From Rhodospirillaceae bacterium (lineage in GTDB: Bacteria > Pseudomonadota > Alphaproteobacteria > UBA8366 > Aestuariispiraceae): a stretch of 64,000 nt of DNA. The first letter of the stretch is position 1, and each line of letters starts with the position of its first letter. Below the pieces are notes generated by a model. That model searched no databases, was not told where the DNA came from, and saw nothing but the letters and a program-made list of their open reading frames with translations. This document shows, in pieces, positions 36,875-52,583 of this stretch. The translations under genes were made by a program, and so were the position numbers. The stretch spans positions 186,001 through 250,000 of the forward strand of contig PAQY01000013.1 of NCBI GenBank assembly GCA_002709955.1, written 5' to 3'.

Positions 36875-37104
36875 GCTGCCCTGGACCCCGGATCAGGTCC
36901 GGGGTGACGAAATCGAGCGCACAATAGTGCCATCCTTCGAGACGCTTCGCTCCTCAGGATGAGGATGCCTTTTGGGAGAGGGAACCGCAGTTGCACGACT
37001 CATTGTCGACCCGTTTGCAGGCAAAAGCATTGGCGACCGGCTAGGTGGGACTAATGAAATCGCACCAATCGTCACCCCGGACTTGATCCGGGGTCCAGGG
37101 CGGC
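36875..37104. repeat. Intergenic inverted-repeat element (REP-like)
   Basis: A 30-bp arm at 36880-36909 (CCTGGACCCCGGATCAGGTC...) is repeated inverted at 37070-37099 with one mismatch. Each arm is itself partly palindromic (CCCCGGA-TC-AGGTCCGGGG). Between them, CATCCTTCGAGACGCTTCGCTCCTCAGGATG forms another hairpin. Both sequence types recur as dispersed intergenic repeats in many alphaproteobacteria. The 317-bp gap between the helicase gene and the convergent FrhB-like gene holds nothing else I can see. Confidence 0.75.
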
Positions 37105-37169
37105 GGGCGCGATTGATGCCTGTGGCCCTATTCACCCGCCTGCGCGGATAGGGCCCGAGTGGTGGTCAG

Positions 37170-38366: not shown

Positions 38367-39306
38367 TGTTCAGCAGGTCGACATAATGCTGTAGGATGAA
38401 GGAAACGGTCACGACGGACAGAATTGTCGATACCAGAATGACTGCTGAGGCCCGTTGGACATAGATCCCATATCGCTGGGCCAGCACGAAAATCAGTCCC
38501 CCCGTGGGCAGGGACGCCATGACAACCGCAATCGCCTCCTCCAATGGCTCCAAGGGGATCAGATAATGGGCGATCAGCCAGGTCGCCAGGGGATGGATGA
38601 TCAGCTTCACAAAGGTGACCCAACTGACCTCCAGGGCGCCCCGCCGAACAGACTGGCCCACCAGAAATAGGCCCATGGCGAACAGGGCACATGGCCCGGC
38701 TGCCCCGGCCAGCAGATCCAGGAATTTCAGGCCGGGACCCGGAATTGTAATGCCCAATGCAGACAGCGTCAGGCCCAGAGCCAAGGCACAGAGCAGGGGG
38801 CTGCGCACCAATCCGCGAACGGCATCATAGGCAATGCGCGGGCCTTTTGAACCGGTGCGGTCCACTTCCATCATGGCGGTCGCCAGGCCCAGCACGATAA
38901 AGATATTGGCCAGCACGGTTGCGATCATCGGATTGGTCGCGCTCTCCCCAAAGGCAGCCAGGCCCAACGGTATTCCCATATAGCCCGTATTTGCAAAGAC
39001 GGAGGAGGCGCTGTGCAGCCCGATCTCCCCGATCCGTTTGGCAAAGAATATCCGGGCGATGAAGGCAATCGGGATCGCGGTGAACAGATATCCCCCTGCG
39101 ACGACGGCCAGGAGTGGCCAGTTCAAGACGGCTTCCACCGGCGCACGTGATGTTGATGCCAGGAACAAGGCGGGCAGCGCGATGAAAAAGACAAAACCGT
39201 TCAGCGCGGCGGTGGAATCCTGTCCCAATAATCGAAACCGTCCGGCCAGCCAGCCGGCCAGAATGATTGCGAAGACGGGAATGGAAAAATCGATCAGAGC
39301 TTGCAT
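38359..39306 (-). CDS. AEC-family auxin-efflux-carrier-like transporter
   Basis: Membrane protein of 315 aa with about ten helices in the two-by-five layout of the AEC family: FSIPVFAIILAGWLAGRF at the start, GFVFFIALPALFLASTS, and ANTGYMGIPLGLAAFGE in the central crossing. Bacterial members move malate, malonate or other organic acids. It overlaps the FrhB-like gene by 8 bp, so the two share a transcript. Substrate unknown. Confidence 0.9.
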   Translation of the reverse strand: MQALIDFSIPVFAIILAGWLAGRFRLLGQDSTAALNGFVFFIALPALFLASTSRAPVEAVLNWPLLAVVAGGYLFTAIPIAFIARIFFAKRIGEIGLHSASSVFANTGYMGIPLGLAAFGESATNPMIATVLANIFIVLGLATAMMEVDRTGSKGPRIAYDAVRGLVRSPLLCALALGLTLSALGITIPGPGLKFLDLLAGAAGPCALFAMGLFLVGQSVRRGALEVSWVTFVKLIIHPLATWLIAHYLIPLEPLEEAIAVVMASLPTGGLIFVLAQRYGIYVQRASAVILVSTILSVVTVSFILQHYVDLLNNG

Positions 39307-39483
39307 GATGGTACGCTATAAGCGCTTGCCCCGTTTTGTCGAGCCGAAAGCATGGCACGGGCCTGTATCAACCCCATATTAGCGCCAAGGACAGGCGTAA
39401 CGGTCTTCCTTGACGTGCGGCGGGGAGCTTGAAATAACTCAGGCTCTCTATAGATAGAGTTCTTAACGGAGGGTTCCCAAACA

Positions 39484-39888
39484 ATGTTAAACCGCCACGA
39501 GGCACTTATCCATGGCATGGTGATCGCCGCTGCCGCTGATGCCGTGATCACTGAATCCGAAATGGAAATGATCGGGCGCATCGTTGCGCATCTGCCGGTG
39601 TTTCGTGATTTCGATGTGACCCAGCTGACCGGCATTGCAAATGCGTGTATCGACAAGCTGGATGATGTCGATGGAATAGATCACATTTTGCAGGAAATGA
39701 AGGCCTCTCTGCCGGTATCACTGCATGAAACCGCCTATGCGCTGGCGGTTGAAGTAGCGGCTGCGGATTTGGAAGCCAGCGACGAGGAATTGATCCTGTT
39801 GCAGATGTTCCGCCAGAGCTTCGGGCTGGACCGGCTGATCTGTACCGGCATTGAGCGTGGCGTCCGGGCGCGATTCACCATCGACTGA
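39484..39888 (+). CDS. TerB-like protein
   Basis: All-helical protein of 134 aa. It shows the TerB-type acidic metal-binding pattern AAAADAVITESEMEMIGRI and the second half AVEVAAADLEASDEELILLQMF, as in stand-alone TerB-like proteins of alphaproteobacteria. A GGAGGG Shine-Dalgarno lies upstream of the ATG. It is not in a ter operon. It is the last host gene before the integrated element; a 26-bp hairpin-like sequence without a T-run lies about 32 nt after its stop. Confidence 0.88.
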   Translation: MLNRHEALIHGMVIAAAADAVITESEMEMIGRIVAHLPVFRDFDVTQLTGIANACIDKLDDVDGIDHILQEMKASLPVSLHETAYALAVEVAAADLEASDEELILLQMFRQSFGLDRLICTGIERGVRARFTID

Positions 39889-40218
39889 TCCCCTGTGTTG
39901 CCAGGGAATTTAGGGTTCAGCGGAAATATAAAGCGCTGTTTCCGCGCCAATTGAGCAAATTGGCAAAAATGGTGATATATTTGCAACGGTAAGATTGTTC
40001 AAAAATTAGGCGTTCGCCTATTATTTTATCGTTAGATTTCAAAGGATTCTGAGTTTGTGACGCATTTGTTGCGGGGCTTTAGTTTCAGCCATGCATTTTT
40101 CGCATACCCGGCTTGACGTTTTTGACGCTAGGCGGCGCGCCCCAACAAGACTATGTAAGAGGTGCTTCAGTTGCTGCAGTGCAGCGACGCCGGGTGATGT
40201 CCCCATCAGCCCGGCCCT

Positions 40219-40257
40219 ACGTCTCCCAGACGTGAAGCCTCCCTGTTCAACTTGCCC
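40219..40257 (+). repeat. attL: 39-bp direct repeat at the left end of the element
   Basis: Perfectly identical to 50768-50806. It consists of hairpin H2 (ACGTCTCCCAGACGT), the linker, and the first bases of the terminator stem. Flanking bases diverge on both sides, which defines the repeat as the att core. Confidence 0.9.
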
Positions 40258-40286
40258 CTAGGTCTTTGACTTAGGGGCATTTTTTT
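40254..40286 (+). terminator. Rho-independent terminator of the small RNA (element-supplied copy)
   Basis: Stem GCCCCTAGGTC / GACTTAGGGGC (one G-T pair) with a TTT loop, followed by ATTTTTTT. It begins in the last bases of the 39-bp att repeat and continues into the element, so the element supplied this 3' end. Confidence 0.88.
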
Positions 40287-40314
40287 GTCTGTGGTGTAGA
40301 ACGTCGGGGGCACG

Positions 40315-40333
40315 GTTACTAAATGGTTACTAA
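40315..40333. promoter_or_regulatory. Left integrase arm-type site (inferred)
   Basis: GTTACTAAATGGTTACTAA, itself two copies of GTTACTAA at an 11-bp step, recurs exactly at 50611-50629 by the other end of the element. The pair of identical sites flanking the att cores fits arm-type binding by the integrase. Confidence 0.6.
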
Positions 40334-40430
40334 TTGCCCTAGATTTCCCCCCTGTCTTGCCCTGTCGTCTGCCAGCGTCGGAACGGGCATACCCTATAGA
40401 AGGTTGTTAAAACGAATTGAATTTACAAAC

Positions 40431-41147
40431 TTAAACAGAATCCCACATCGCAACTATGAATCGGCAAGCATTTTCAAGATCATTCATCCTTCGGGAGTTT
40501 GATTCAGGAGCTTGGAAACACTCTCCGTGCTGCACATCAATAGACATACAAAACCTGTTTGATATTGGCTTACTTAGATCAAAATTCTGTTCAGCATGTA
40601 GTCTCGCTAGCGTTGCAACATATAGTCCCATTTCCCTTCTGCGCGTTTGTGCCGCTTCTGATTCGCCGTCAGCCTGGGTCATGCGAAGTATGGCGACCCC
40701 GGAATGAGGTGCCCTTCGAAGGGTGCCCGTCACAATTAAATCCGCGTAAACCGAGATTTCTACGCCAGCGAGATCAAGTTTTGCTTGCCGTTTGGGAGCG
40801 GGTTCAAAGCTGAATTGCGTAAGGCTATTTGCCATGCGCTGGATCGCATGCAGCACCTCTACGCTATTTCTTGCATCATCCTGCCGAAGGGCGGAAATAG
40901 AGGGGTCGTCTGCTCGCTGATTGAAGTGTTCTTCGGCTTCAACTAGGAGATTCACAGAACGTTGATTATCTGATAGAAATGCGTTTACGACAGGCCGCAC
41001 ATCCTTATATCGAATAATGGGCGGAATGTTTGGGGTTTTGGCTCTCCGCAAGATTCCAACACGAGCTGTGTCTGATGACACCATGTACTGAGCGAGATCA
41101 TTCACACTTATTCTAGGAGCGGGTCGATGAACAGGAGTTCGGGCCAT
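40431..41147 (-). CDS. Unknown protein, possibly a degenerate PD-(D/E)XK-like fold
   Basis: About 238 aa from ATG 41147, with AAGGA 8 nt upstream; a longer frame opens at 41180. I do not recognise the family with certainty. The centre, GVEISVYADLIVTG then GVAILRM and, about 25 residues later, MGLYVATLARLH, follows the D-x(n)-(D/E)xK-x(n)-Q/Y order of RecB/Cas4-like nucleases, but the catalytic E-x-K position reads ILR, so activity is doubtful. The last third is conserved-looking (NRFCMSIDVQHGECF). It is the leftmost gene of the element and shares its start site with the divergent 79-aa gene. Confidence 0.6.
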   Translation of the reverse strand: MARTPVHRPAPRISVNDLAQYMVSSDTARVGILRRAKTPNIPPIIRYKDVRPVVNAFLSDNQRSVNLLVEAEEHFNQRADDPSISALRQDDARNSVEVLHAIQRMANSLTQFSFEPAPKRQAKLDLAGVEISVYADLIVTGTLRRAPHSGVAILRMTQADGESEAAQTRRREMGLYVATLARLHAEQNFDLSKPISNRFCMSIDVQHGECFQAPESNSRRMNDLENACRFIVAMWDSV

Positions 41148-41385
41148 GGATGATATCCTTGCAAGCGTCGCAGTCGGCAATGGTTTAAGCGTTCATATTG
41201 CCACACTTGCACGCAAGACGATAGAAAATGCTGGCGCGAGTCATTTAGGATCTGATGGGTACTTTCTATTTGAAGCAACAGACATTCCAGATAGGAAGGG
41301 AATAACGATCCTTGGTAAGGTGGCGTCGTTGGATGCCGCATTCAGATTGATAGACTTATGGACTCTTCGCGAGCGTACAGCCTAG
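41146..41385 (+). CDS. Small protein of unknown function, divergent partner of the preceding gene
   Basis: 79 aa with AGGAG 9 nt before the ATG. Sequence is mixed alpha/beta in appearance (VAVGNGLSVHIATLARKTIE; SDGYFLFEATDIPDRKGI; LGKVASLDAAFRLIDLW). No TM or signal. Its ATG shares the palindrome CCATGG with the ATG of the opposite-strand gene, so the two genes overlap by 2 bp head to head. Such tight head-to-head layout suggests mutual control, possibly an antitoxin or accessory subunit; that is inference. Confidence 0.6.
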   Translation: MDDILASVAVGNGLSVHIATLARKTIENAGASHLGSDGYFLFEATDIPDRKGITILGKVASLDAAFRLIDLWTLRERTA

Positions 41386-41440
41386 TCTCCCCCGCGTCGT
41401 GATTCCATGGCCTTAAAATGACTGCGGGTCAGTCTAACAA

Positions 41441-41592
41441 ACGGTCGTCTTGTTCTAGGTTTCCTCGTTCATCTTCTGAGACGGTATCGGTAACGGTTTG
41501 CCAAACGGTTCGGGGAACGGTTCCCTATACGGTTTCATGACGGGTCGTGACGGTCTGTGACATTACGTGACGGTCTGTGATAGGGCGTGACC
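41441..41592. repeat. Iteron-like direct-repeat array
   Basis: ACGGT occurs at 41481, 41493, 41505, 41517 and 41529, an exact 12-bp pitch, with an outlier at 41441. A second array follows: CGTGACGGTCTGTGA at 41546 and 41566, with a partial CGTGACC at 41586, an exact 20-bp pitch. The 500-bp gene-free stretch 41386-41898 contains this array, then an AT-rich segment with a TTGACA at 41811. It could be a replication origin, an initiator or repressor binding array, or a transfer origin. Confidence 0.75.
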
Positions 41593-41898
41593 ATTGGGGC
41601 ATCTATGCGATATTATGGAGCAAAATCACCAAAATAGCCAATAGGATAAGCCGTGGAAGCTTTACTGCGGCGTTCTTTATGATGTGTATGGATGCAATAG
41701 GCGTTCACGATCTGCGACTAGAAACGTGATTGTGATATTAAATTTGTGTGGGTGGCCTTGTTTTCCTACATTTTGTGTGTGATATATGATAGTAACTTCG
41801 TATTGTGTTCTTGACAAAAGTTAAAAACATAGTCGCGAAACTCGAAACCGCGCTAGAGATGGTGTACCCACTCAACGCGCCAACAAGAGGTGGAAAGT

Positions 41899-42087
41899 AT
41901 GGCTGATCAAGTCTCGCTGGCCCAGAATCGCCTCTTTGGCGAAAGCGGGCTGAAGGTAAAGGATGTCAAACTGTTCCCAGGATCGTCTCGCGACGTTTCC
42001 GAAGCGCAGTTTGCTACCGAAATCAACAAGGTTCTGTCGCAGCTTGAAGCGGGCGACTATGATGTCGAAACCGATAAAGACTACTAG
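41899..42087 (+). CDS. Small acidic protein of unknown function
   Basis: 62 aa from ATG 41899 with AAGAGG 8 nt upstream; an in-frame GTG exists at 41890. The C-terminus is acidic (LEAGDYDVETDKDY). No recognised domain. It is 8 bp upstream of the ImmA/IrrE-like gene on the same strand, opposite to most element genes, and downstream of the iteron array. Its size and pairing resemble small partner or antitoxin genes, without sequence proof. Confidence 0.6.
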   Translation: MADQVSLAQNRLFGESGLKVKDVKLFPGSSRDVSEAQFATEINKVLSQLEAGDYDVETDKDY

Positions 42088-42095
42088 GGGCCCGG

Positions 42096-42668
42096 TTGAG
42101 TTACAAAAACCTTTACGAGTTTGCCCAAAAGCAAACCCCCAAAACCAGTAGAAATATTATACGCGACGAGGCCCTGCGACTAGCAGGGCTTCAAAGCATT
42201 GCACATGTCAAATCTGGCATGGACGTGACTGTATGCCGTGGGCTGTATTTCTCAGCCACATCCAAAACACATAAAATTGTTCAGCAGCTTGGCAGCCATG
42301 TTATTATTACAGAACGGTCGCTCAACGAATGCTGGACTCGCTTTGTATATGTGAAAGAGCTGATGCATGTCTTTACGCCTGCACATGAAGCATCAGACAC
42401 GGGATCTAGGTTCGAAGAACTATTAGCGGACTTGTCTGCCCCGATACTATCATCTCCATCAAATCAAATGCTTTCCGAAGTGGACGCATTTTGGATGTCG
42501 CTGGCGGTTCTGTGTCCAGAAGCGCGTCGCCTTGAGATGAAGGAATCTTTGGAAAAAAACGAAATAGATAACTACGGCATCGCATTAGAACTCAAGATAC
42601 CAGAACAGTATGTTCCTAGGTTATTTGAGGAGCGCTATCTCAGAAATGTGAACCGAATCATCAAATAA
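42096..42668 (+). CDS. ImmA/IrrE-like protein with altered HExxH motif
   Basis: 190 aa from a TTG with AGGGG 5 nt upstream. Residues 82-93, RFVYVKELMHVF, align with the zinc-peptidase helix of ImmA/IrrE proteins (RFTLAHELGHxF type), but the first metal His is Lys (KELMH, 87-91). The next helix FEELLADLSAPILSS matches the E-x-x-A-D...LLMP region. ImmA-type proteases cleave phage or ICE repressors; here catalysis is probably lost and a binding role is likelier. The coupled 62-aa gene upstream could be its partner. The call rests on a short motif. Confidence 0.55.
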   Translation: MSYKNLYEFAQKQTPKTSRNIIRDEALRLAGLQSIAHVKSGMDVTVCRGLYFSATSKTHKIVQQLGSHVIITERSLNECWTRFVYVKELMHVFTPAHEASDTGSRFEELLADLSAPILSSPSNQMLSEVDAFWMSLAVLCPEARRLEMKESLEKNEIDNYGIALELKIPEQYVPRLFEERYLRNVNRIIK

Positions 42669-42716
42669 AGCGACCAACATCATCATATTTGGTGAGTTTA
42701 CTCCATAATACCGCAT

Positions 42717-42941
42717 TTATGCGATCAGTGCCTTTCCGGCCTCAGTCACGCGGTACCCCTTGAATCGGCCCATAGTGACGCGGGCAATCAACTCCCCACG
42801 GCATAGGGCCTCAATGTCTAGAAAAGCTATATCTGCCAGACCATCGGCGTGGACGATAGGCGCGATTCCATCCCCATGAATGCGCATGAGTAGAGTAAGG
42901 TGCCTTTCTGAGATTTGCGGGATCAAATCATCTCGGGACAT
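42717..42941 (-). CDS. Small phage-type protein of unknown function
   Basis: 74 aa from ATG 42941, which overlaps the stop of the upstream HTH-repeat gene (TAATG) and has AGAGGA 6 nt before it. The sequence has a winged-helix feel: ISERHLTLLMRIHGDG, ALCRGELIARVTMGRFKGYRVTEAGKALI. The last part resembles the wing and C-terminal helix of small prophage transcription factors. Translationally coupled to the HTH-repeat gene. Function unknown. Confidence 0.6.
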   Translation of the reverse strand: MSRDDLIPQISERHLTLLMRIHGDGIAPIVHADGLADIAFLDIEALCRGELIARVTMGRFKGYRVTEAGKALIA

Positions 42942-43879
42942 TAAATCCTCTTGAGGTGACGAGATATTGTGCTGGGGCACAAACCGAACCGCGCGCCTAT
43001 TTCCTGATTTGTTAAACTTTCCGACCTTCGGAGTCTTTGCACTTCTTTAAGATCATTTGGAGTCAGTGCTGGTGGCCTTCCCTTCCAGCCGATTCGATTG
43101 TTTTTGATTTTGGATGATATCGTTTCTGGGTTTCTCGCAAGCCAACGCGAGATGCATTCAACTGATTCACCTCGCTTGATAGCACCGATCATAATTTGAA
43201 GCTCTGCGGGAGAGAAAGGGTCCTGATCCCTCTCATGCAGTAAACCATAAAGATATCTGCGAACCGCGTGTTTGGAGCGCTTTGGAAATAGTTCGGCTAG
43301 CGCAATTCCTCGCACACCAGAGAGGTAGGACATCAATAACTTACGTTTGTCGGCAATGGACCAGACCGAAGATTTTTGAAATGCCTCTGGGCAAAGGCGC
43401 TTCGCCATGTGGTTCACGGAGTGCTTTGAACGTCCCGGCAATAATTGTGCGACCTCGCTTAGACTTAGGCCAGAACAAAAACCTCCAACCAATCGGCTCT
43501 TCTCTTCCTCTGTGAATTGTTTACTGAATCGTCGACCATTTAGAACAATCTTTTTTGCGACGTCGCTAGGTTCACGTTCTATTTGGTGTGAAATCATCGC
43601 AATAGAATAATCACTCTTAAGGCACTCTCGGAGTGCAGCCAGGTCTTCTGAACCCCACGGGGACCGACACTTAACAGACGCATTCAGATGTCGTCTTGCG
43701 TTTCTGAATCTCCTTTGTTCCGCTCTATGAAGTATATCCTTTCCATTATCGTCGTGCCTTAGACCGCGACGCTCCGCATCAATAAGTCTACATCGCATAT
43801 GGCGAAAGTTTCTGGCTTCGACATATCCAGTACTCCAATGTGTTCTGCGCAACAGACCTAACTTCCAGGCATGAGACAC
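42941..43879 (-). CDS. Protein with five tandem HTH/SANT-like repeats
   Basis: 312 aa from ATG 43879; M29 at 43795 is an alternative start. Residues 75-312 hold five similar units of about 38 residues starting WGSEDLAALRECL (75), FTEEEKSRLVGGF (122), WSIADKRKLLMSYLSG (173), FSPAELQIMIGAIKRG (222) and LTPNDLKEVQRLRR (271). Each has an aromatic or Leu start, acidic third or fourth residue, and a trihelical HTH ending such as SKHSVNHMAKRL, SKHAVRRYL, NPETISSKI or CPSTISRHLKRI. The last resembles the resolvase C-terminal HTH. Likely a multi-contact DNA-binding protein. The N-terminal 70 residues are basic. Confidence 0.7.
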   Translation of the reverse strand: MSHAWKLGLLRRTHWSTGYVEARNFRHMRCRLIDAERRGLRHDDNGKDILHRAEQRRFRNARRHLNASVKCRSPWGSEDLAALRECLKSDYSIAMISHQIEREPSDVAKKIVLNGRRFSKQFTEEEKSRLVGGFCSGLSLSEVAQLLPGRSKHSVNHMAKRLCPEAFQKSSVWSIADKRKLLMSYLSGVRGIALAELFPKRSKHAVRRYLYGLLHERDQDPFSPAELQIMIGAIKRGESVECISRWLARNPETISSKIKNNRIGWKGRPPALTPNDLKEVQRLRRSESLTNQEIGARFGLCPSTISRHLKRI

Positions 43880-44931
43880 GACATCGCCTCCTGACCGCCC
43901 CAGATCAGCTGCAATTGATAGTATCGGAGCCCCAACAGACCATCTTGTTTGTAGGAGATGTTCTTCATGTTTTTGCCAAGGTGGGAGTTGCCTTCCGGGG
44001 TTCGCAAAAGGTTTGGAAGGGCTGCAAGGAACATCGACACGTCTCTGTCACTGGATGATCCCGAACCCGTCTGTCGCATTGCAGGCGCAAGGCGGCTCTG
44101 AATGCTTTGAATCAGTTCGCCCTCTTGCAAGGATGGATCGACGGGCAAGCCCAAATCGTTCGCCAAGCTGCCAAGGAACAGGCGGATATTTGCGGTCGGA
44201 CCCGTGCCGAATTGATCCAGGGCGGCGCGAACCCGTTGCAAGTCTGGCATGGATTCCCGCATTTTCTGGACGCCCTCCCGCATGCCGCCGATAAATTGCG
44301 CGTCGAGTTTCGACAGTTCGTCTGCACCTTTCGGCATGTTGACGGTCACGCCACCTTGTTTGGACAACATATCGCGGGCGGCTTGCTGATATTCGGGGGT
44401 TCCCGGCTGGTAGCCTGCCTGCATAAGCTTTACCTGGATATCGGGCGGCTGTTGATACGCGGGTTGCCCAAGGGCCTCTTGCGCGGTCTGATATCGGAAA
44501 CCATTGTTGCCGTCCGGTACTTTCACCAAATCGGCGGCTGTGATTGGCTTTGGCTTGTTGTTTTCCATGCCCTGTAGTGCGGCGAATTGAAGTTCCTGGG
44601 CCCGTGGTCCTGTCAGACCGTCCAGGGCGGCGAACATGCCTTGATAGCCTTTAGGCGGCTCTGTGGTGCCTCCAGGCGTCAAGGGTGCGCCGGTTGGGTC
44701 GCTGTAAGTCCGGTTGGGCGCACCTTGTCCCTGAAACCCACGCATGGCGGCTTGGAATGCCTTCTGATCGGCCTCTTGCGCCTGCTGCCGTTCCTGTCGC
44801 TGCCTGCCCATCTCTAAGCCTTGCGTCAACTGAGACGCCAGATAGCCCATACCGCCCGCGTGAGTGCCGTTGTTCATCTGCGCGGCATAGTTCGGGTCCA
44901 ATAATTTCACATAACGGCCTACGGTCTGCAT
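43858..44931 (-). CDS. Phage ejection/internal-virion-type protein, C-terminally truncated
   Basis: 357 aa. The Gln/Met/Gly-rich N-terminal half (LEMGRQRQERQQAQEADQ) and the pattern GSLANDLGLPVDPSLQEGELIQS...APAMRQTGSGSSSDRDVSMFLAALPNLLRTPEGN are typical of podovirus DNA-ejection proteins. In such proteins the RTPEGN segment is followed by a long coiled-coil tail; here the frame changes character after it and ends within 45 residues (LIWGGQEAMSCLMPGS). The gene looks cut by a deletion or insertion near 43970. It overlaps the HTH-repeat gene by 22 bp. Confidence 0.65.
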   Translation of the reverse strand: MQTVGRYVKLLDPNYAAQMNNGTHAGGMGYLASQLTQGLEMGRQRQERQQAQEADQKAFQAAMRGFQGQGAPNRTYSDPTGAPLTPGGTTEPPKGYQGMFAALDGLTGPRAQELQFAALQGMENNKPKPITAADLVKVPDGNNGFRYQTAQEALGQPAYQQPPDIQVKLMQAGYQPGTPEYQQAARDMLSKQGGVTVNMPKGADELSKLDAQFIGGMREGVQKMRESMPDLQRVRAALDQFGTGPTANIRLFLGSLANDLGLPVDPSLQEGELIQSIQSRLAPAMRQTGSGSSSDRDVSMFLAALPNLLRTPEGNSHLGKNMKNISYKQDGLLGLRYYQLQLIWGGQEAMSCLMPGS

Positions 44932-44950
44932 TGGATGGTCCTTTCGTGTT

Positions 44951-45520
44951 TCAGGCGTTGCCAGCGATCAAAGGGGACTGGATGGCGCGAAAAATTCGTT
45001 CTTCATTTTCGAGTAAGACTTCGGCTGCCCAAGGGCCTGCGACTGCCAGCGCAATGTGTGCTGTAGTTTCCAGCGACCATTGCCCCGCCATCTGCTCCAG
45101 GCCGATTGCGGTTGCCACGTTTTGCGGCTGAAGGCTTGCCAGGGCTTGCCGATACTCTAGGGGCTGTTGAAGCAACCAGCGCAAAGGGACCGATAATTCA
45201 GGGCGTGCCGGGTGTGCCGGGTTTCCGTGACCATGTTCCCCGTATGCCGCGACGCCCTCACAATATAACCGTTCCCGCGTATCTGGGGCGATGCTCCATT
45301 GCTCCAAAAGCCCAAAGACAAGATCATTAACTCGCATACCCAGGTTTCCGAGATACCCGGCGATGAATTGGCGTTTCAGGCTTTTCGTGATGTCGTCGGG
45401 AAAGGCTGCCCCCACCGGGCCAGGGGCGCTGTCGGACGCATTCAGACCATGAGAATTATGGGCTTCCGGCGGGGGCAACTCGGACCGCTCAAGGGCGGAA
45501 ATTTGTTTCGTTTGCTTCAT
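44951..45520 (-). CDS. Phage-type hypothetical protein
   Basis: 189 aa. I do not recognise a family. The first 45 residues are polar and Pro-rich; the rest appears helical, with DDITKSLKRQFIAGYLGNLG, LFGLLEQWSIAPDTRERLY-like and LAVAGPWAAEVLLENEERIF segments. It lies 19 bp upstream of the ejection-type gene on the same strand, so it could be a structural or assembly partner. No TM. Confidence 0.55.
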   Translation of the reverse strand: MKQTKQISALERSELPPPEAHNSHGLNASDSAPGPVGAAFPDDITKSLKRQFIAGYLGNLGMRVNDLVFGLLEQWSIAPDTRERLYCEGVAAYGEHGHGNPAHPARPELSVPLRWLLQQPLEYRQALASLQPQNVATAIGLEQMAGQWSLETTAHIALAVAGPWAAEVLLENEERIFRAIQSPLIAGNA

Positions 45521-45578
45521 CTTTCATAACTCTCATGTTGGCGCGACTCCGTATGACTCCGACATACGAATAATAGCA

Positions 45579-45815
45579 TCATCTCCTTGATTCTGCATGG
45601 GTTTCACTGTGACGCGTCACACCCAACCAATCGCGTAACGCGGCTTGTGTCGCTTGTTCAATCGCGGCGCGGTCGTCTGTGTCTGAAGCGCTAAGAAATT
45701 CAAACTCGACAAGCGCGGCTTTGAGTTCGGGACCAATCGCAATTGACGCAACGGAAACGCCAATTTTTTTTCGGTCTCTGTAAGCCCTGGTTCTCGTTGC
45801 GGATTTGTCAGGCAT
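45579..45815 (-). CDS. Small DNA-binding-like phage protein
   Basis: 78 aa. A basic start (KSATRTRAYRDRKKIG) leads into SVASIAIGPELKAALVEFEFL and AIEQATQAALRDWLG, a strand-helix-helix order like ribbon-helix-helix proteins. It is the last gene of a minus-strand set with consecutive overlaps (8 bp with the gene upstream). Assignment to RHH is tentative. Confidence 0.55.
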   Translation of the reverse strand: MPDKSATRTRAYRDRKKIGVSVASIAIGPELKAALVEFEFLSASDTDDRAAIEQATQAALRDWLGVTRHSETHAESRR

Positions 45816-46050
45816 TGGCTTCGCCCGACGACACAGTGTTTCGTCCCGAAGTGCCTACTCCCCTTTTTTTTGGAGATGCTTCTGATCTATCGGTATCGGT
45901 GCGCTCTGTGGTGACTGTGCCCTTGCTCTGGATTGCTGTACTGGCATTCCGGCCCAACACTTCCCCCAAACCCCTGGAGATATAGAAAGGACTCGCAGAA
46001 ATGGGGGTAGGCCAGCCATAGGAAAAATCGCAGAAATCCGGGTTTCTCAT
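45808..46050 (-). CDS. Small hypothetical protein within an overlapping gene chain
   Basis: 80 aa of low complexity, rich in Ser, Thr and Gly (TAIQSKGTVTTERTDTDRSEASPKK). Support comes from position: its ATG overlaps the upstream stop by 4 bp and its stop overlaps the next ATG by 8 bp. It also contains the third member of the GACTCGCAG repeat family. It may be a translated spacer, not a functional protein. Confidence 0.35.
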   Translation of the reverse strand: MRNPDFCDFSYGWPTPISASPFYISRGLGEVLGRNASTAIQSKGTVTTERTDTDRSEASPKKRGVGTSGRNTVSSGEANA

Positions 46051-46123
46051 TTTCGGGTACTCTCTGAAAGGCTGCCCACTACTCGCAGTTTTGGGGGTAC
46101 AGCACTCGCAGTTTTGCGAGTAG
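45991..46123. repeat. Intragenic 20-bp repeats, iteron-like
   Basis: ACTCGCAGAAATGGGGGTAG (45991-46010), ACTCGCAGTTTTGGGGGTAC (46081-46100) and ACTCGCAGTTTTGCGAGTAG (46104-46123), the last being palindromic, plus a weaker partial copy near 46027. They sit at the 3' end of the winged-helix gene and the start of the next ORF. Replication initiator genes of small elements often carry such sites. Confidence 0.6.
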
Positions 46124-46607
46124 CAAACTGTTTTTTCCGGCCCTTATTGGCTTCGGATTGGTGCCGTTTCCAGGCGTCCACCGTCTCTTGTGTCGTCACC
46201 TTCCATTCATTGGTAGGGCCTGCGTCGGCATTCCCTAGCCAGGTCAAACGATAGAGGGAAGGGCGGTTAGCCCCTCCCCACCGTCCACCACGTTTGAAGC
46301 GGATTAAACCAAAGACTTCGGCTTCCTCAATGGCATATCGAATGCAATTCCGGGAAAGCCCGTATTCCTCCAGATCCTTGTGTGTGACTGGCAACCTGCC
46401 ATTTTCAATGCCACCATGTGACAGATGTTCGATCATCAAACGATCTATCAAGCGGCGTCCATTGGTAGACAGACCACACCATGCGGGACTCTCCAGAAGT
46501 TCGGCGGTAAGCCATACGAATTGACCGGGCGGCTTTAGGTTTGCGGCGATGACACGGGTGTATGTCCCACGGCTGCGACCCGTTGCGTCTGTCTTGCGAT
46601 TCTTCAT
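46047..46607 (-). CDS. Winged-helix protein, candidate replication initiator or regulator
   Basis: 186 aa. The central part LSTNGRRLIDRLMIEH, GRLPVTHKDLEEYGLSRNCIRYAIEEAEVFGLIRFKRGG fits a winged helix found in short alphaproteobacterial prophage and island proteins. The C-terminal third is basic and low in complexity, and its coding DNA contains 20-bp repeats, one palindromic. That combination (wHTH protein plus self-borne repeats) is what replication initiators of satellites show, but regulation is equally possible. ATGA overlaps on both sides. Confidence 0.6.
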   Translation of the reverse strand: MKNRKTDATGRSRGTYTRVIAANLKPPGQFVWLTAELLESPAWCGLSTNGRRLIDRLMIEHLSHGGIENGRLPVTHKDLEEYGLSRNCIRYAIEEAEVFGLIRFKRGGRWGGANRPSLYRLTWLGNADAGPTNEWKVTTQETVDAWKRHQSEANKGRKKQFATRKTASAVPPKLRVVGSLSESTRK

Positions 46608-47077
46608 GGCTGCACCGCCGTATCGCCTGCCTGGAGTTGGCGCGTGACCCGCAACAAATCTTGCATGGACGGCGGTCTATTCGGCTCGTATTTGATCCGG
46701 GCGGCGGCGTGTACCAATTCCTCCGCAACGCCTATTTCATTCGATCCATCATCATCATCTTGAATGAAGCCTTGGAATCGGCGGTCATTGATTGCATTAC
46801 ATGCGAGACAAGCCCGAACGAACAGGGCGACACTCCTGTTCCGGTCAAACGGGGCCAAGTCCATTATGGCAAGAGCAAATCGATTCAGCGGATGATTGGT
46901 AAATACGGCAAGCATTGCCTTTCCGTTTTCATCCTCCAGCCATAAACTAGGCGCATATGGTCCCGCTATCGGGGCCATGCGGCCCCGGCCTGTTGCTTCC
47001 CGAACGCCAACTTGAATGGCGGCGGTCAGCAAGGCAGGCGAGACGGTTTCAAACTTCTGAATGTCAAAAATGTTCAT
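46604..47077 (-). CDS. Hypothetical element protein
   Basis: 157 aa, no recognised domain. The N-terminal half has SPALLTAAIQVGVREATGRG and APSLWLEDENGKAMLAVF; the C-terminal half is acidic then basic (FIQDDDDGSNEIGVAEELV). No TM. It is coupled by 4-bp overlaps to the HNH gene upstream and the winged-helix gene downstream, so it belongs to the same early-type operon. Confidence 0.55.
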   Translation of the reverse strand: MNIFDIQKFETVSPALLTAAIQVGVREATGRGRMAPIAGPYAPSLWLEDENGKAMLAVFTNHPLNRFALAIMDLAPFDRNRSVALFVRACLACNAINDRRFQGFIQDDDDGSNEIGVAEELVHAAARIKYEPNRPPSMQDLLRVTRQLQAGDTAVQP

Positions 47078-47742
47078 AGGGCACCGCCTGGACGGGTCAC
47101 GCCCTGTTCGCCCGGTTCCGGGAAATTGAGACGTGCGAATTCGCCGTGCAGGCCACGGGCCATGGCGTCATAGTCTTTTGCGGCTTCAATGGCAGTGAGT
47201 CGCCAGGGACCGCGAAACCTTGCGCCGTCTTGCGTCACTGCCCCTTGGAAACGAACCTGGACAGGATCAAATCCTATCCCCACGAATCCATAGCTGTTAT
47301 GGGAAACAGTCCTGTTGGCGCCGTTCTGTGAATATGTGCAAATCCGCAGGTTTGACCGGCGATTGTCCAGCGGGTTGCCGTTGACGTGATCCACCACGAA
47401 ACCGGGGGGCGGGGACATTAATTCACGATGTAAATAAATGCGGCGTTGCTTGCCATTTATCATGGCGGTTCGCGACATATACCGGCCCTTGGTCCCTCCA
47501 GGCGAATAGCGGTATTGACTGAAACGCGCGTGATCCGCTTTGTCGATAAGACATTCCGCCCCGTCACTGCGAATAAGGATAGCGGTATCAGTGCCAACAT
47601 CGGACAAGTCAAAATGACGGGCGATGATGGACGGGACCGGTTGCGGATTTTTTGGAGTTGGAGTATTCTTAGGGCCTTCCGAGCCTGTTAAGAAATCTCC
47701 GTCCCCGGCCAGCGTGCCGGGGTTCGGTCTATGGTGTGTCAT
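47074..47742 (-). CDS. HNH homing-type endonuclease
   Basis: 222 aa. The core has IYLHRELMSPPPGFVVDHVNGNPLDNRRSNLRICT, a canonical HNH motif (H...DHxNxxxxDNRxxNL), followed by NGANRTVSHNSYGFVGIGF, resembling the AP2-like DNA-binding segment of phage HNH endonucleases. A Pro-rich N-terminal 40 residues precedes it. It starts 2 bp after the excisionase stop. It may be a selfish homing enzyme or serve in element DNA processing. Confidence 0.85.
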   Translation of the reverse strand: MTHHRPNPGTLAGDGDFLTGSEGPKNTPTPKNPQPVPSIIARHFDLSDVGTDTAILIRSDGAECLIDKADHARFSQYRYSPGGTKGRYMSRTAMINGKQRRIYLHRELMSPPPGFVVDHVNGNPLDNRRSNLRICTYSQNGANRTVSHNSYGFVGIGFDPVQVRFQGAVTQDGARFRGPWRLTAIEAAKDYDAMARGLHGEFARLNFPEPGEQGVTRPGGAL

Positions 47743-47744
47743 GA

Positions 47745-47972
47745 TTATGCGGCCGCATTCGCCAATTCAAAGGCGCTCTGGCCTTCGGTGCCGGTCTGTG
47801 CCAAGCGGTCGATACTTTCGGCGGTCACAAGGCGGCGGTGTCCGATCATGCGACTTTCCAGCTTGTTGCCCTGCAACAGATACCGGATTGTGCGCGGGGA
47901 TACGCCCAAGGCTTGGGCGGATTCTGGAATGGAAAAAAGGCGGCGGGTGACAGGGTTTAGATTGTTTGTCAT
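47745..47972 (-). CDS. AlpA/excisionase-like HTH protein
   Basis: 75 aa from ATG 47972 (seven codons inside the longest frame). It carries the MerR-like HTH LFSIPESAQALGVSPRTIRYLLQGNKLESRMIGHRRLVTAESIDRLA, matching excisionase/AlpA proteins that control integrase direction and early genes. It is the first gene of the minus-strand chain down to 45579. The 115-bp gap before it should hold the operon promoter. Confidence 0.8.
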   Translation of the reverse strand: MTNNLNPVTRRLFSIPESAQALGVSPRTIRYLLQGNKLESRMIGHRRLVTAESIDRLAQTGTEGQSAFELANAAA

Positions 47973-48109
47973 AAACGCTAATCCTTTGCTCATGGTTGCG
48001 ACGATTTGCCGTCAGTGAGCAAAGGATGATGGTATAAACCCCTGAAAAATAGACGTTATGATCTACCGTTATGAATTTTGCGGTTCGATACGGTGTTTCG
48101 ATACGGGCG

Positions 48110-49294
48110 TTATGAATTCTCTTTTTTAGAGGGGCCGGGGCGTGCCCAAGGATGATCCGGCGTAATAAGTTGTCCCCAAACCCGATCTCTAAATCCTCTC
48201 TTGCTAACACCAAATGTACTTCTGGCGAATTCAGATAAGGTTTCTTTCGTCTGGTTAGGGGGCCTTTTCTTCGGGTGTTCTTGCAGTAACCCTTCAAGCC
48301 ATTTTCTGCATGCAGAATCCCCTTTTGTTGTCGGCGTCTGATAGGGCGGCTTTTCCTCGACGGGCGGTGCTTCAATTGAGGCGGGGGCAGGCGTTGCCAG
48401 ATCGGGGCTTGCCGGTTGCTCCAGGCTGCTATCAGGTTGCCATAGGCTTAAAACATCATCACGACGAAACCGGATATTCTCAAAATATTCGATTGCGGGT
48501 TTGTTGTAGGTTCCGAAAACACCAAGCCCAAAATACTTTTGCTCCAGATAATTCACACAGTCGGAAATTGTATCATATGTGAATGCTTGCGGGTTGATTT
48601 GTCCATTCGCGGGGAAAGTGCCGTATGGGTTCAATCGCAATAACTCGCCACTGCATATAGCCTCGACCAAATCACGGGCGGCGCGCTTTACGGCAATTTT
48701 AGAATCAAAATAGCTGCCCCCTGTAGTTTCTATCGGAATATCCCAATACCCGGCCTCTATTGGGTCCAATAGATTAAATACCTTGAACGATAAAACTTGC
48801 GACCAGTGCCACACTTGCGACAACGGCAAGCGTTGCGGGCTTTCTATCCAATCGGCGTAAACCGGAATAATCATTACACCGTCAAACCTAGTTGATACCG
48901 ACTCGATATTGTTTCTACAGAAAGTTAGAATACTGCCATTTGATGGGTCTAGAAGATTGCCTTCTTTCCATGCTGACACTGATATGGTTTCCGCTGTCCT
49001 TGATCGAATTGTTTGTGCAGAAATCCTATATCCTATCGCCCGACATACGCCGTTTACTAATTTCTGAGTGAGCCGATCATAAGCCTCTTTACGGGGTTGC
49101 AAAGCCACCCTCACATCATCGCCACTTTCCCCCTTGTTCTCGACAAGATATTTAAGGGGTGATTTTTGATAGCGTTCTAGCTGGTGCCCTAATTCAACTA
49201 GGCGGGCCTCGCTCTCTCTGAGCGTTGCAAGTTCGGTCTCGTTTAAGACACTCTCCAGGGCTTCAACTAGCGTAAGTCGTTTCTGTTCTGTCAT
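48110..49294 (-). CDS. Large conserved-type element protein of unknown function
   Basis: 394 aa from ATG 49294, which has GGAAGG upstream; a GTG at 49303 is also in frame. I do not recognise the family. Residues 1-90 are helical and charged, 100-280 look globular, then a Pro/Ala linker (PASPDLATPAPASIEAPPVE), and a basic C-terminal module (CRKWLEGLLQEHPKKRPP, SEFARSTFGVSKRGFRDRVW) that looks like a small HTH. It lies between the integrase and the excisionase genes. Codon use is AT-richer than the host genes. Confidence 0.6.
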   Translation of the reverse strand: MTEQKRLTLVEALESVLNETELATLRESEARLVELGHQLERYQKSPLKYLVENKGESGDDVRVALQPRKEAYDRLTQKLVNGVCRAIGYRISAQTIRSRTAETISVSAWKEGNLLDPSNGSILTFCRNNIESVSTRFDGVMIIPVYADWIESPQRLPLSQVWHWSQVLSFKVFNLLDPIEAGYWDIPIETTGGSYFDSKIAVKRAARDLVEAICSGELLRLNPYGTFPANGQINPQAFTYDTISDCVNYLEQKYFGLGVFGTYNKPAIEYFENIRFRRDDVLSLWQPDSSLEQPASPDLATPAPASIEAPPVEEKPPYQTPTTKGDSACRKWLEGLLQEHPKKRPPNQTKETLSEFARSTFGVSKRGFRDRVWGQLITPDHPWARPGPSKKENS

Positions 49295-49392
49295 GCTCTG
49301 CACCTTCCGTCTGGCGCGCCGTGATAAGGGCGATGGGGGCAGGCGGGCACGGTCCCCGCTTGTCGGTCGCTAAACCTAGCCCCCATCAACTT

Positions 49393-50577
49393 TTACCGAA
49401 TTGAGACTACCCTTGCCCCGGCTTCGGAATTCAAAACGACGCGGCGGACGTGTTCCCCCCACTTTTCCAGCGCGTCGCGTTTTTCGGCTGCAAAATCATA
49501 CATATCGTATGTACTCTCCATCGCGTCTCTGGCATGGTTTAGGATCAATTCAGCGACCAGAACCGAGACACCAAGGCGCGATAGACCCGTTCGGCCTGTC
49601 CGTCGAAAATCGTGCAGCGTCCAGCCCGTCACGGCGCTTTCGCTAGTGAGCGCGCCTACAATCTTGCTATGACCGGCATAGGGGCGTTTGCCGTCGATGG
49701 TGAAGACATAGGGGCCAAGCTTGGGCAGGGATTCCAGAATCTCCCAAGCGAAAGAGGATAAGGGCACAGTATGCTCGCGGTCTGCCTTGGTCCTGGACGC
49801 TGGAATGATCCATAGTCCTGCATCCCGGTCCAGTTCGGCCCATCGCATGGCGCGGATTTCGTCCCGGCGCTGCATTGATAAAATGAGAAGCTGGATGAAT
49901 TCCCTAGAGGGTGAGGACCGGGCGGCGGCTGCTTCCCAGACGGCCCGCAATTCGGCATCATTCAGAGACCGGGCGCGCTTCGTTTCTTTCACGCGCCGCC
50001 TCAATCCACTCATATGGTTGATTTCGATGCGGCCCTCATTCACGGCCCAATTTAACGCGCCATTCAAGGCGGCGTGTACGCGGTTGATTTGTGCGGTCAA
50101 TCCCTTGCCCGAAAGCTTGTCGAGAAGCCCGATAGCATCCCCACGGCGGAAATCGTCCAGGCGCAACTTTCCAATGTATGGAATGACGTGCTGGTCAAAC
50201 AGGACGCGCGTTTGTTCGGGCTTGCGCGTTTTGGGGATGGAATGGCAGGTGTGATAGTTGTCTATGAGATCCGATATGGTTTCGATCTTGTTCGCGCCTG
50301 AGACCTTGCCCTGCAGAAGATCGGCCCGGAACAGTGTTGCAGCGGTGCGGGCGTCTGCCAGCGACATTGCCGGATAATCCCCCAATAATTTCGCGTCCTG
50401 CACCTTTCGGCGCGGATCGGTATATCGGACAAACCATCTTGCGCGGCCCGTATGGTAAAGGCGAAAGGTTAAACCGCTTGTGTGAGTATCGGTGCGCCAT
50501 ATGAAACCCTTTGAAGGCGGCTTTAAGCTTCTCAAAAGCTGGTCAGTCAGTCGTGCCTTTGTCGGTTGCTTTGCCAT
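49393..50577 (-). CDS. int: Tyrosine recombinase (phage-type integrase)
   Basis: 394 aa from ATG 50577, with GGGGG 5 nt upstream. Layout: N-terminal arm-binding region (KARLTDQLLRSLKPPSKGF, DUF4102-like), core-binding SAM-like domain, then the catalytic domain with Arg I in MQRRDEIRAMRWAEL, HxxR in HDFRRTGRTGL, His in LILNHARDAM and the nucleophile in TYDMYDF. It is a P4-type integrase. It lies next to the right att repeat and presumably recombines the 39-bp sites. Confidence 0.95.
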   Translation of the reverse strand: MAKQPTKARLTDQLLRSLKPPSKGFIWRTDTHTSGLTFRLYHTGRARWFVRYTDPRRKVQDAKLLGDYPAMSLADARTAATLFRADLLQGKVSGANKIETISDLIDNYHTCHSIPKTRKPEQTRVLFDQHVIPYIGKLRLDDFRRGDAIGLLDKLSGKGLTAQINRVHAALNGALNWAVNEGRIEINHMSGLRRRVKETKRARSLNDAELRAVWEAAAARSSPSREFIQLLILSMQRRDEIRAMRWAELDRDAGLWIIPASRTKADREHTVPLSSFAWEILESLPKLGPYVFTIDGKRPYAGHSKIVGALTSESAVTGWTLHDFRRTGRTGLSRLGVSVLVAELILNHARDAMESTYDMYDFAAEKRDALEKWGEHVRRVVLNSEAGARVVSIR

Positions 50578-50591
50578 ATTGGCCCCCATGA

Positions 50592-50629
50592 ATTAGTAAC
50601 GGAATGCCTCGTTACTAAATGGTTACTAA
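50592..50629. promoter_or_regulatory. Right integrase arm-type sites (inferred)
   Basis: GTTACTAAATGGTTACTAA at 50611-50629 is identical to 40315-40333, and an inverted ATTAGTAAC lies at 50592-50600. They lie upstream of int, so integrase binding here could also repress its own promoter. Confidence 0.6.
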
Positions 50630-50767
50630 ATTTATTGCTGCTTGGCGTTGCTACGCATTGCCATATATTGCAGAATGTACAGCAAGAGATACAGGATTAA
50701 CAGGGTTTTTAGGGGTTCGGATTGTTTCACATTGCACGACAAGGAACCCCGTTGCCCGGTTGGCAAC

Positions 50768-50806
50768 ACGTCTCCCAGACGTGAAGCCTCCCTGTTCAAC
50801 TTGCCC
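50768..50806 (+). repeat. attR: 39-bp direct repeat at the right end of the element
   Basis: Exact duplicate of 40219-40257. The 323-bp gap between int and the EAL gene holds the arm sites, this repeat and the terminator that follows. Confidence 0.9.
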
Positions 50807-50832
50807 GGATCTTCTGATCCGGGCATTTTTTT
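50803..50832 (+). terminator. Rho-independent terminator at attR
   Basis: Nine-bp perfect stem GCCCGGATC / GATCCGGGC, 4-nt loop, seven T. Its stem sequence differs from the attL-side terminator but the stem start and T-run context (GGGCATTTTTTTGT) are shared. Confidence 0.88.
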
Positions 50833-50900
50833 GTTTTAATCCCGATTATTCAAACAGCATTTGTGTGTGCTGCTTGAATTCAATGATTTGGAAAGCAGCT

Positions 50901-52583
50901 TTATGCTTTGGCCCTTGGGTCGTGCTTTCTCAGCCAGTCCGGCCATTCTGAGAGTGGCATGGGTTTGGCGATCCAATAGCCTTGCAGCATGTCGCAGCCC
51001 TGCTTGGTCAACCACTCTGCGGCTTCTTTGTCTTCGACACCTTCTGCGATGCTGACAAGGTTCAGATCCTTGGACAATTCGATGGTTCTGCGCACCAGAA
51101 TGGCATCGGTTGACGAGTGCATGATTTCGCGCACAAAGGACTGATCAATTTTCAAGGTGTCCGCGGGGAAGTCCTTCAGGTAGGAAAAGGACGAAAACCC
51201 CGTGCCAAAATCGTCAATCGCGATATGCACGCCCATGTTGCGCAACTCAGCAAGAACCGGTTTGGCGGCCCCCAGGTCTTCAATAACAGAGGTTTCCGTG
51301 ATTTCCAGTTCCAGATTGGGCAGGCGTTTCATATCGTCTTTAAAGGCTGCTTTTAGCCGGTTGGGGAAGTCTGAATCTGTGACATCCCAGCCAGAAACAT
51401 TGATTGCGATATGATAGTCGACATTCGGCAGGACAGCTTCTGTCGCCATCATATACACCCGCGCAGCGTCAATTGATGCGCTTGTGATGTCATAGATCAA
51501 CCGCGATTTCTCTGCCAAAGGGATGAAGCGATCCGGCGGGATCATCCCGTCCTCCCCATGTTTCCACCGCACCAGCAATTCGCATCCCCGCACCAGTCCC
51601 GTCCGGGCGCAAAGCTTGGGTTGGGCAAAGAAAACGATTTCCTTTCGTTCGATGGCCTGGCCCAGGTCCGCCAACAGTTTCAAGTTCTCGCGCCGGATCG
51701 TGTCGTCATTCTCATTGAATACCGACGCAGTGGAAAATCTGGCTGGTGTCTGCAACATCGCTGCAAATGATTTGCGCACCAAATCGTCTGCGTGCGTTCC
51801 GTGATCTGGAAACACGACCATGCCAATCCGGCTTTCTATTCGCATCGGAAGGCCCTGCATCATGACCGGACATTGAAGGGAGCAAACGATTGAGTTTGAT
51901 ATCCGACCCGCTTCTTCAGGCGTTACATGTTCTATTAAGGCCAGGAATGTGGCGTGGCCACCGCGGGCCAGATAAGAGTCCTTCGGCAGGATGGATTGTA
52001 TTCGATTGGCACAGGCCTTGATAAAATCTTCACAGGCATCATTCCCAAATGACGTGCGGATGTCGACGGCGGTTTCGATTTCGAAGTTCAGGATGACATG
52101 TTGCTCATTTGGGTCGGTATAGGCCTGGGCTGCTGCGCTGATCTTGCGCCGGAACGCCTCAAACAGGGGAAGGTTTGTGACCGGATCATAATTCAGGATC
52201 CGGAACATTTCTTGTTGATGGTTGAGGATCGTGTTGTGCATAAGGCCGATCACCAGCCCGAAAAGGCACAGATACCCACCCCGAGAGACCCAGTTTTCAA
52301 GCTCTTGCGGTTCCCCGGCCAGAACATCCAGAGGCATAATCGGCCCCATAACAATCATACCGACCAGACCCGAAACAATGCCCCCCAGGACGCGAAACCG
52401 GAAGGCGGCAAGGACCACTGGAAAATATACGACATGAAGATGGGCGAATTTTGTTCCGCCTGTTTCATAAACGACAATCCAGGACAGGATAAAACAGACC
52501 CCGATTGTCAGGAGTGCGATCCAGGGTTTGTTGTAAAGCCGGAGCAGCAACGCGAATGTCGTCCTGTCAAAGATGCTCTTCAT
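50901..52583 (-). CDS. Membrane GGDEF-EAL protein, c-di-GMP phosphodiesterase with dead GGDEF
   Basis: 560 aa. Several TM helices in the first 130 residues form an MHYT/MASE-like sensor. The GGDEF domain is degenerate: the signature reads LARGGHATF, so no cyclase activity is expected. The EAL domain (roughly 305-545) keeps CELLVRW in place of EALLRW, ELEITETSVIED, IAIDDFGTGFSSFSYLK, LKIDQSF and IAEGVED, the metal and catalytic residues of an active phosphodiesterase. It is monocistronic and reads toward the attR terminator. Confidence 0.9.
   Translation of the reverse strand: MKSIFDRTTFALLLRLYNKPWIALLTIGVCFILSWIVVYETGGTKFAHLHVVYFPVVLAAFRFRVLGGIVSGLVGMIVMGPIMPLDVLAGEPQELENWVSRGGYLCLFGLVIGLMHNTILNHQQEMFRILNYDPVTNLPLFEAFRRKISAAAQAYTDPNEQHVILNFEIETAVDIRTSFGNDACEDFIKACANRIQSILPKDSYLARGGHATFLALIEHVTPEEAGRISNSIVCSLQCPVMMQGLPMRIESRIGMVVFPDHGTHADDLVRKSFAAMLQTPARFSTASVFNENDDTIRRENLKLLADLGQAIERKEIVFFAQPKLCARTGLVRGCELLVRWKHGEDGMIPPDRFIPLAEKSRLIYDITSASIDAARVYMMATEAVLPNVDYHIAINVSGWDVTDSDFPNRLKAAFKDDMKRLPNLELEITETSVIEDLGAAKPVLAELRNMGVHIAIDDFGTGFSSFSYLKDFPADTLKIDQSFVREIMHSSTDAILVRRTIELSKDLNLVSIAEGVEDKEAAEWLTKQGCDMLQGYWIAKPMPLSEWPDWLRKHDPRAKA

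Follow-up and report, generated by a model that had tools for sequence, protein, structure and literature searches.

The 64-kb window analysed here (the whole stretch from position 186,001 to 250,000 of contig PAQY01000013.1, assembly GCA_002709955.1, from a Rhodospirillaceae bacterium) contains a 10,549-bp insertion flanked by two copies of the 3′ end of a small RNA (sRNA) gene. The insertion is very probably an integrative element whose integrase recombines a copy of the sRNA 3′ module carried on the circular element with the module in the chromosome. The basis for this is a set of direct repeats, an adjacent integrase that retains its catalytic residues, repeated sites at both ends of the element, single-copy loci in relatives and the same arrangement in 14 genomes. 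Because the same spot appears to be used by elements in at least 13 further genomes of Alphaproteobacteria, the sRNA gene would represent a shared docking site for mobile DNA, as transfer RNA (tRNA) genes do.

Boundaries of the element

The element is delimited by a perfect 39-bp direct repeat (40219-40257 and 50768-50806) that cannot be extended on either side and is the sole exact direct repeat of at least 20 bp within the window; genome-wide the repeat occurs in these two copies, with no third at up to three mismatches. A first-pass annotation of this DNA had placed a repeat-bounded element of roughly 10.6 kb here, and the bounding repeat is confirmed; that figure counts both repeat copies, whereas the unit consisting of one repeat and the interior measures 10,549 bp. 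The same annotation described each copy as a hairpin, a linker and the start of a terminator, both ending in a terminator-like structure, and folding agrees: each copy forms a hairpin of 6 bp and, past an unpaired GAAGCCTCCCTGTTCAACT linker, a strong stem with T7 after it, with energies of −26.6 (40219-40290) and −26.1 kcal/mol (50768-50835) for the two 3′ modules. The integrase encoded beside the right copy combines Arm-DNA-bind_3 and Phage_integrase domains, and the invariant columns of the integrase alignment (A2) include R240, K267, H325-x-x-R328, H351 and Y360. The motif GTTACTAA, a pattern picked after inspection of the repeat, is present at five sites in the window, all near the two ends of the element (0.24 expected; none of 100 shuffles had five or more).

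The target is a conserved sRNA gene

The repeat corresponds to the 3′ module (hairpin, CCTCCCTGTTCAACT linker and terminator start) of a conserved sRNA gene that commonly follows a gene of the TerB family. Among 98 genomes, including that of the window, the TerB gene was found in 53 and a 24-base stretch of the repeat, with two mismatches allowed, in 26, while a reversed-pattern control gave none. Of the 14 same-family genomes, again counting the window's own, 13 have an RNA copy at a distance of about 0.2 to 1.2 kb past the TerB gene; the exception is G004, which has no TerB match. A covariance model of the 3′ module (R1) matches in 39 of the 43 genomes of the order and, at E ≤ 0.01, in 217 of 387 alphaproteobacterial genomes, a count that rests on rough E-values and may include chance matches at its weak end. 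The linker is mostly invariant across an alignment of 29 RNA copies (A1), an invariance that is partly built in because these copies were retrieved by linker pattern, and copies with another linker exist (L139 and L174). The terminator helix varies in sequence while keeping its pairing: 94.3% of cells pair, compared with 79.5% in shuffles, 53 cells are changed on both sides (14.8 in shuffles) and the covariation score is 0.374 (0.113 in shuffles). The number of terminator pairs changed on both sides, five, shows no excess over shuffles (4.9), and no pair of the short hairpin is changed on both sides. In the first 5′ hairpin, compared over 15 copies from the family, one pair is U-A in eight rows and C-G in seven. 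No Rfam family reaches its gathering score for the sRNA, whether at its site in the window or at 20 related loci, and ARAGORN detected no tRNA and no transfer-messenger RNA (tmRNA) in the window.

In two other pairs of genomes the sequences flanking such an element meet on one RNA gene. The left flank in G433 (L158) maps to 2448-8448 of the G372 locus (L161); the right one (L159) matches 8375-9722 and, beyond a gap, 12625-20000, so that the matches overlap only around the RNA module and leave a single RNA copy; the two flanks sit on different contigs in G433. In the same way, the flanks from G321 map in G384 at 3950-6245 and at 6177-6253, the match resuming at 9948; G384 has additional DNA past the site. 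In these alignments, both pairs present the site in its uninterrupted state. Within the genus of the window, G001, G003 and G005 have the TerB gene followed by a single RNA copy. A locus from G002 (L063) was also considered as an uninterrupted site and was rejected, as it carries the left arm of the element and a run of N.

Conservation after TerB, the covarying terminator and the meeting of flanks on one RNA gene support the earlier suggestion that the target is the 3′ end of a regulatory RNA; the lack of a tRNA hit and the match of the repeat to the 3′ end of a conserved RNA-like gene likewise favour its view that the target would not be a tRNA gene.

Recurrence at the same site

A first survey identified integrases near RNA copies in the window and in G004, G321, G329, G347, G380 and G433, several of these regions having been selected because the genome had two RNA copies; 60 further RNA-copy regions had no integrase beside the RNA. 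A profile built from seven of these integrases was then searched in 387 genomes of the class and matched at E ≤ 1e-50 in 102 of them. With up to four candidates scored per genome, 42 distinct loci were examined, and the eight that lie beside the RNA, in seven genomes, have the eight best scores (at least 414 bits), while none of the 34 loci scoring 356 bits or less adjoins it. Six of these eight integrases are members of the profile and two are not (that of G104 and a second one in G380). Further orders (127 genomes) contributed 22 new loci, with the integrase beside the RNA in four out of four at 431 bits or more and in two out of 18 at 368 bits or less. Some loci end near a contig end, where a neighbouring module may have been missed. 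The total stands at 15 integrase loci in 14 genomes, window included, and at every one of them the integrase gene lies upstream of the module and reads away from it. Occupancy of the site is low, seven of the 387 class genomes in the profile search, which is a lower bound. Among the loci of other integrases, a few contain tRNA genes, for Pro in L245 and for Asp in L246 (the same locus as L270), L306, L307 and L312.

The second copy of the module was located in seven of the 14 genomes, on one contig for the window, G321, G329 and G347 and partly on other contigs for G433, G104 and G380. Sequence upstream of displaced copies folds more weakly than that upstream of native ones, with a mean of −6.6 (n = 15) against −14.3 kcal/mol for 41 hand-chosen native copies (Mann-Whitney p 8e-7). 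The cargo varies at the site, from ABC transporter, TonB receptor and metallo-beta-lactamase-superfamily genes in G329 to kinases and a cyclase-AAA protein in the G347 element.

In G380 one contig (C18; L155, L264) has an RNA module with an integrase next to it at two points 33 kb apart, and the two integrases belong to different subgroups; these are apparently two elements in tandem.

Core, putative arm sites and apparent exchange of the terminator

Comparison of six pairs of copies gave identical stretches of 39, 44, 30, 67, 43 and 46 bp, all of which contain GACGTGAAGCCTCCCTGT; the members of the G433 and G104 pairs lie on different contigs and are presumed to belong together. A repeat of at least 11 nt is common to both arms in four of the six pairs, a count made with no shuffle control. 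The two copies in G104 have one and the same variant linker, an indication that element and host site correspond. An inverted repeat around the linker, TGAA-N9-TTCA, was a candidate for the paired core sites of the integrase and was dropped, as the G104 variant does not have it.

The left copy in the window retains the sRNA upstream of the terminator loop and has a different terminator, while the right-hand terminator resembles the one found at the same junction in G004. By sequence, then, the sRNA would stay whole after insertion with the terminator alone exchanged, which supports the first-pass proposal that the element restores the terminator.

Proposed mechanism and alternatives

We propose that an arm-binding tyrosine integrase recombines the module on the element circle with the chromosomal module, the crossover presumably falling within the common stretch around GACGTGAAGCCTCCCTGT. 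After insertion, the left copy would be a whole sRNA gene ending in the terminator of the element and the right copy would consist of the leftover core and the native terminator beside the integrase gene, while excision, probably aided by the AlpA-like protein, would restore the original gene. Two properties make such a target suitable for mobile DNA, its strong sequence conservation across the class and the fact that insertion would leave the RNA whole; the same logic applies to tRNA genes.

Several observations weigh against this interpretation. The uninterrupted TerB-RNA-EAL locus that the first-pass annotation proposed to look for in related genomes was not found in the genus, the EAL gene being unmatched at E ≤ 1e-100 in G001, G003 and G005. 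In G170 and G252 only the left flank from G321 and the module match and not the right flank, and the second copy was not located in seven of the 14 genomes (G004 and the six new ones). The displaced copy in L264 folds at −17 kcal/mol and several other displaced copies overlap the native range, while two of the six pairs of copies have no common arm repeat. In G002 (L063), furthermore, the RNA is followed by the terminator of the window's right junction and then by the left arm of the element, which implies that the terminator of the element attachment site (attP) varies or can be exchanged; as both terminators of G347 are identical, the two cases together suggest that element terminators may be host-like.

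The repeat could in principle reflect no more than a duplicated terminator module, with two paralogous sRNA genes 10 kb apart and an integrase adjacent by chance. Paralogues do occur, since G006 (L070) has two complete sRNA copies 2.2 kb apart and the model matches about 0.4 kb apart in G015, G277 and G405; for this reason the presence of two copies per genome, considered as proof of an element, was rejected as such in view of the G006 paralogues. However, the DNA preceding the right copy is unlike the sRNA, 15 loci show the same arrangement with the integrase, flanks meet in relatives and repeated sites lie at both ends, all of which makes chance adjacency to a paralogue extremely improbable. 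It is also conceivable that the core is targeted as conserved DNA, the sRNA being untranscribed or non-functional here and the RNA aspect incidental, given that integrases read DNA, that the 3′ module alone is shared, that transcription is predicted from sequence and that the linker invariance in A1 is to some extent a product of retrieval. We regard this as very unlikely, as the family conserves the first 5′ hairpin, one pair of which has changed on both sides, the terminator changes in sequence while its pairing holds, and SmelC671, a family of the same description (the likeness being one of description only), was detected by sequencing in Sinorhizobium meliloti.

A different question is what kind of element is inserted, and a degraded prophage or a phage satellite resembling a phage-inducible chromosomal island (PICI), instead of another type of island, is possible if doubtful; it would not conflict with the insertion mechanism. 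Gram-negative PICIs are characterized by int and AlpA together with rep and by helper-dependent packaging. The window element has an integrase, an AlpA-like gene and a weakly rep-like gene, and the module also occurs near one end (within 100 nt) of two viral contigs described below. On the other side, no head, tail or packaging family was detected among the 10 element proteins scanned with PHROGs, and the structural proteins of one of these viral contigs (L173) have no match in the window.

Integrase lineages

The phylogeny of 38 integrases (one of 39 was left out), of which 15 are from RNA sites and the other 23 were hand-chosen, places the RNA-site integrases in three places: a group of 11 that includes the window, with weak support (89/72), a group of three (100/99) and G347 alone. 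This tree needs three changes (bootstrap 3-4), compared with 12.1 for shuffled labels, and an earlier tree of 45 rows with nine RNA-site integrases likewise gave three changes (bootstrap 2-4), with L148 apart from the others. On these sequences the RNA-site integrases fall into about three lineages, while one origin with losses is compatible with both trees. As distinct lineages appear to use the same 18-bp core, the site provides a natural test of the preference of integrases for the 3′ ends of RNA genes.

Content and mosaic structure of the element

Family matches among the element proteins are confined to the integrase, an AlpA-like helix-turn-helix (HTH) protein, an HNH endonuclease, a D5-like regulator and a weakly rep-like protein, the remaining 10 of the 15 proteins scanned (a subset of them with PHROGs) having none; no relaxase or conjugation Pfam family was found among these 15 at E ≤ 0.01. 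The int-alpA RNA that adjoins the integrase gene is the sole Rfam match in the window and is present in one of seven element loci scanned (L069). Three left-part proteins (40431-41180, 42096-42668 and 42941-43879) have identical counterparts in contig L064, which over 34045-43990 agrees with the window at about 94% identity, while parts of the right half resemble the G004 element. L064 itself matches the window as far as 43987-43990 and the G004 element (L069) beyond that point, at about 93-94% identity. Because its left part matches L064 and parts of its right half resemble the G004 element, the element is a mosaic with a joint near 43990.

Table 1. Features of the element, its attachment sites and its neighbours (positions in the window).
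Feature	Position	Strand	Basis
Whole copy of the sRNA gene, with native 5′ hairpins, the 3′ module and a terminator apparently supplied by the element	40160..40290	+	conserved after TerB in same-family genomes; 5′ end predicted
Left 39-bp repeat (left attachment site), sRNA 3′ module	40219..40257	+	identical to 50768-50806
Terminator of left copy, presumably brought by the element	40253..40286	+	fold; differs from right-hand terminator
Putative integrase arm sites of the left arm: GTTACTAA twice, 11 bp apart	40315..40333	+	pattern count
HTH regulator, D5-like (cargo)	42941..43879	-	HTH_38, phrog_323
357-aa cargo protein with no Pfam or PHROG match	43858..44931	-	94.5% identical over 329 aa in G004 element
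Weakly replication-initiation-like protein (cargo)	46047..46607	-	phrog_270, E=0.0017; no Pfam match
HNH endonuclease (cargo)	47074..47742	-	HNH_3
AlpA/excisionase-like HTH_17 protein	47745..47993	-	HTH_17; phrog_66, E=0.00013
int-alpA RNA	49319..49386	-	RF02996, 50.9 bits (gathering score 35.8)
Tyrosine integrase, reads away from right attachment site	49393..50589	-	Phage_integrase, Arm-DNA-bind_3, phrog_1
Right arm: three GTTACTAA sites, putative integrase arm sites	50593..50629	.	pattern count
Right 39-bp repeat (right attachment site), displaced 3′ module	50768..50806	+	upstream sequence unlike native sRNA 5′ part
Native sRNA terminator, presumably displaced	50802..50832	+	fold; resembles terminator at same junction in G004
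TerB-family gene, conserved left neighbour outside element	39484..39888	+	PF05099
GGDEF-EAL gene, right neighbour outside element	50901..52583	-	PF00563, PF00990; adjoins right junction in G004 too

Modules on viral contigs

The sRNA module is carried within 100 nt of one end by two related, short viral contigs from IMG/VR (L172 and L173), both of which have portal genes and one of which (L173) also has capsid and protease genes; no integrase was found on either. These may be satellites or prophage pieces that use the same site. Head genes of the L173 type were considered as part of the window element and were not found there.

In five other viral contigs, model R1 places the 3′ module away from the contig ends (E 3e-18 to 1e-7): at 9867-9942 (-) in L292, 1357-1449 (-) in L293, 2922-3009 (+) in L290, 3714-3790 (-) in L289 and 11454-11531 (+) in L291. 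The L292 copy presents the hairpin-linker-terminator arrangement within a phage contig that has a terminase match. The integrase profile, with most of these contigs searched in part, found none beside the module and one weak match 12 kb off in L293. These modules are possibly phage-borne sRNA mimics or attP sites. The 80-bp site gave no match in a collection of phages and one partial match, from Tistrella mobilis, in a collection of plasmids.

A broader and rather unlikely extension is that a regulatory sRNA conserved across the class was chosen as landing site independently by about three integrase lineages, that insertions swap its terminator and U-tail and leave displaced 3′ modules which can be fused to element-encoded 5′ ends, so that elements may retune the riboregulator and make chimeric copies of it, the phage modules beside which no integrase was found being part of the same traffic.

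Comparison with known systems

The sRNA is similar in layout to described RNA families. RFMSmelC671 (Sm84), reported from the Rhizobiales, has a long single-stranded region with a conserved CUCCCUGU and variable hairpins on either side, the last of which is the terminator (PMC3927594, available portion), and SmelC671 is a 100-nt sRNA supported by sequencing in S. meliloti (PMC2873474, available portion). The RNA described here shares the single-stranded CUCCCUGU between variable hairpins and the 3′ terminator, a match by description in which sequences were not compared, while the available text on RFMSmelC671 concerns Rhizobiales and makes no mention of an integration site. The hairpin, CUCCC linker and terminator are also seen in suhB/MmgR (RF00519), SorX (RF02784) and SorY (RF02651), whose models score below their gathering scores (26.5/41, 18.1/46.6 and 17.8/111 respectively).

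Insertion into an sRNA gene is itself of a known kind, as prophage PhiW104 in ryeB precedes it: the accessible part of a review lists sRNA genes among favoured prophage sites and places the PhiW104 attachment site of Salmonella within the last 23 bp of ryeB (PMC7380047). Both cases involve mobile DNA inserted in the last base pairs of an sRNA gene, but the PhiW104 insertion, according to the same excerpt, alters the antisense RNA ryeA and its transcription, whereas no antisense sRNA is known here, and the present RNA has a range that spans Alphaproteobacteria and serves about three integrase lineages. A survey of literature on sRNA genes as attachment sites and on related RNAs, seen in part and with subscription journals mostly uncovered, returned the ryeA/ryeB precedent and none for Alphaproteobacteria; a text search for the core sequence returned one paper, which is unrelated, and the terms sRNA, small RNA and ncRNA are absent from an S. 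meliloti hot-spot paper (PMC11476347) and a Paracoccus virome paper (PMC6536676). The class-wide reach is the new part, while insertion into an sRNA gene has precedent. Compared with the first-pass annotation, the finding is stronger, because the site is used beyond the genus and across Alphaproteobacteria; on the other hand, sRNA targets were already known, which makes it less unprecedented than was implied. The set of RNA genes at which mobile DNA docks is extended by an sRNA gene that occurs across the Alphaproteobacteria, and elements that would escape island finders relying on tRNA and tmRNA genes can be given precise ends.

A close parallel in organization is with the islands in tRNA and tmRNA genes, in which, as set out in the available part of the Islander report (PMC4383910), the RNA gene is split and restored by island DNA while a displaced fragment marks the other end. 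Here the target is instead a regulatory-type sRNA, and the integrase gene adjoins the displaced copy at all 15 loci. In tRNA islands, by contrast, the integrase gene is more often found beside the restored tRNA.

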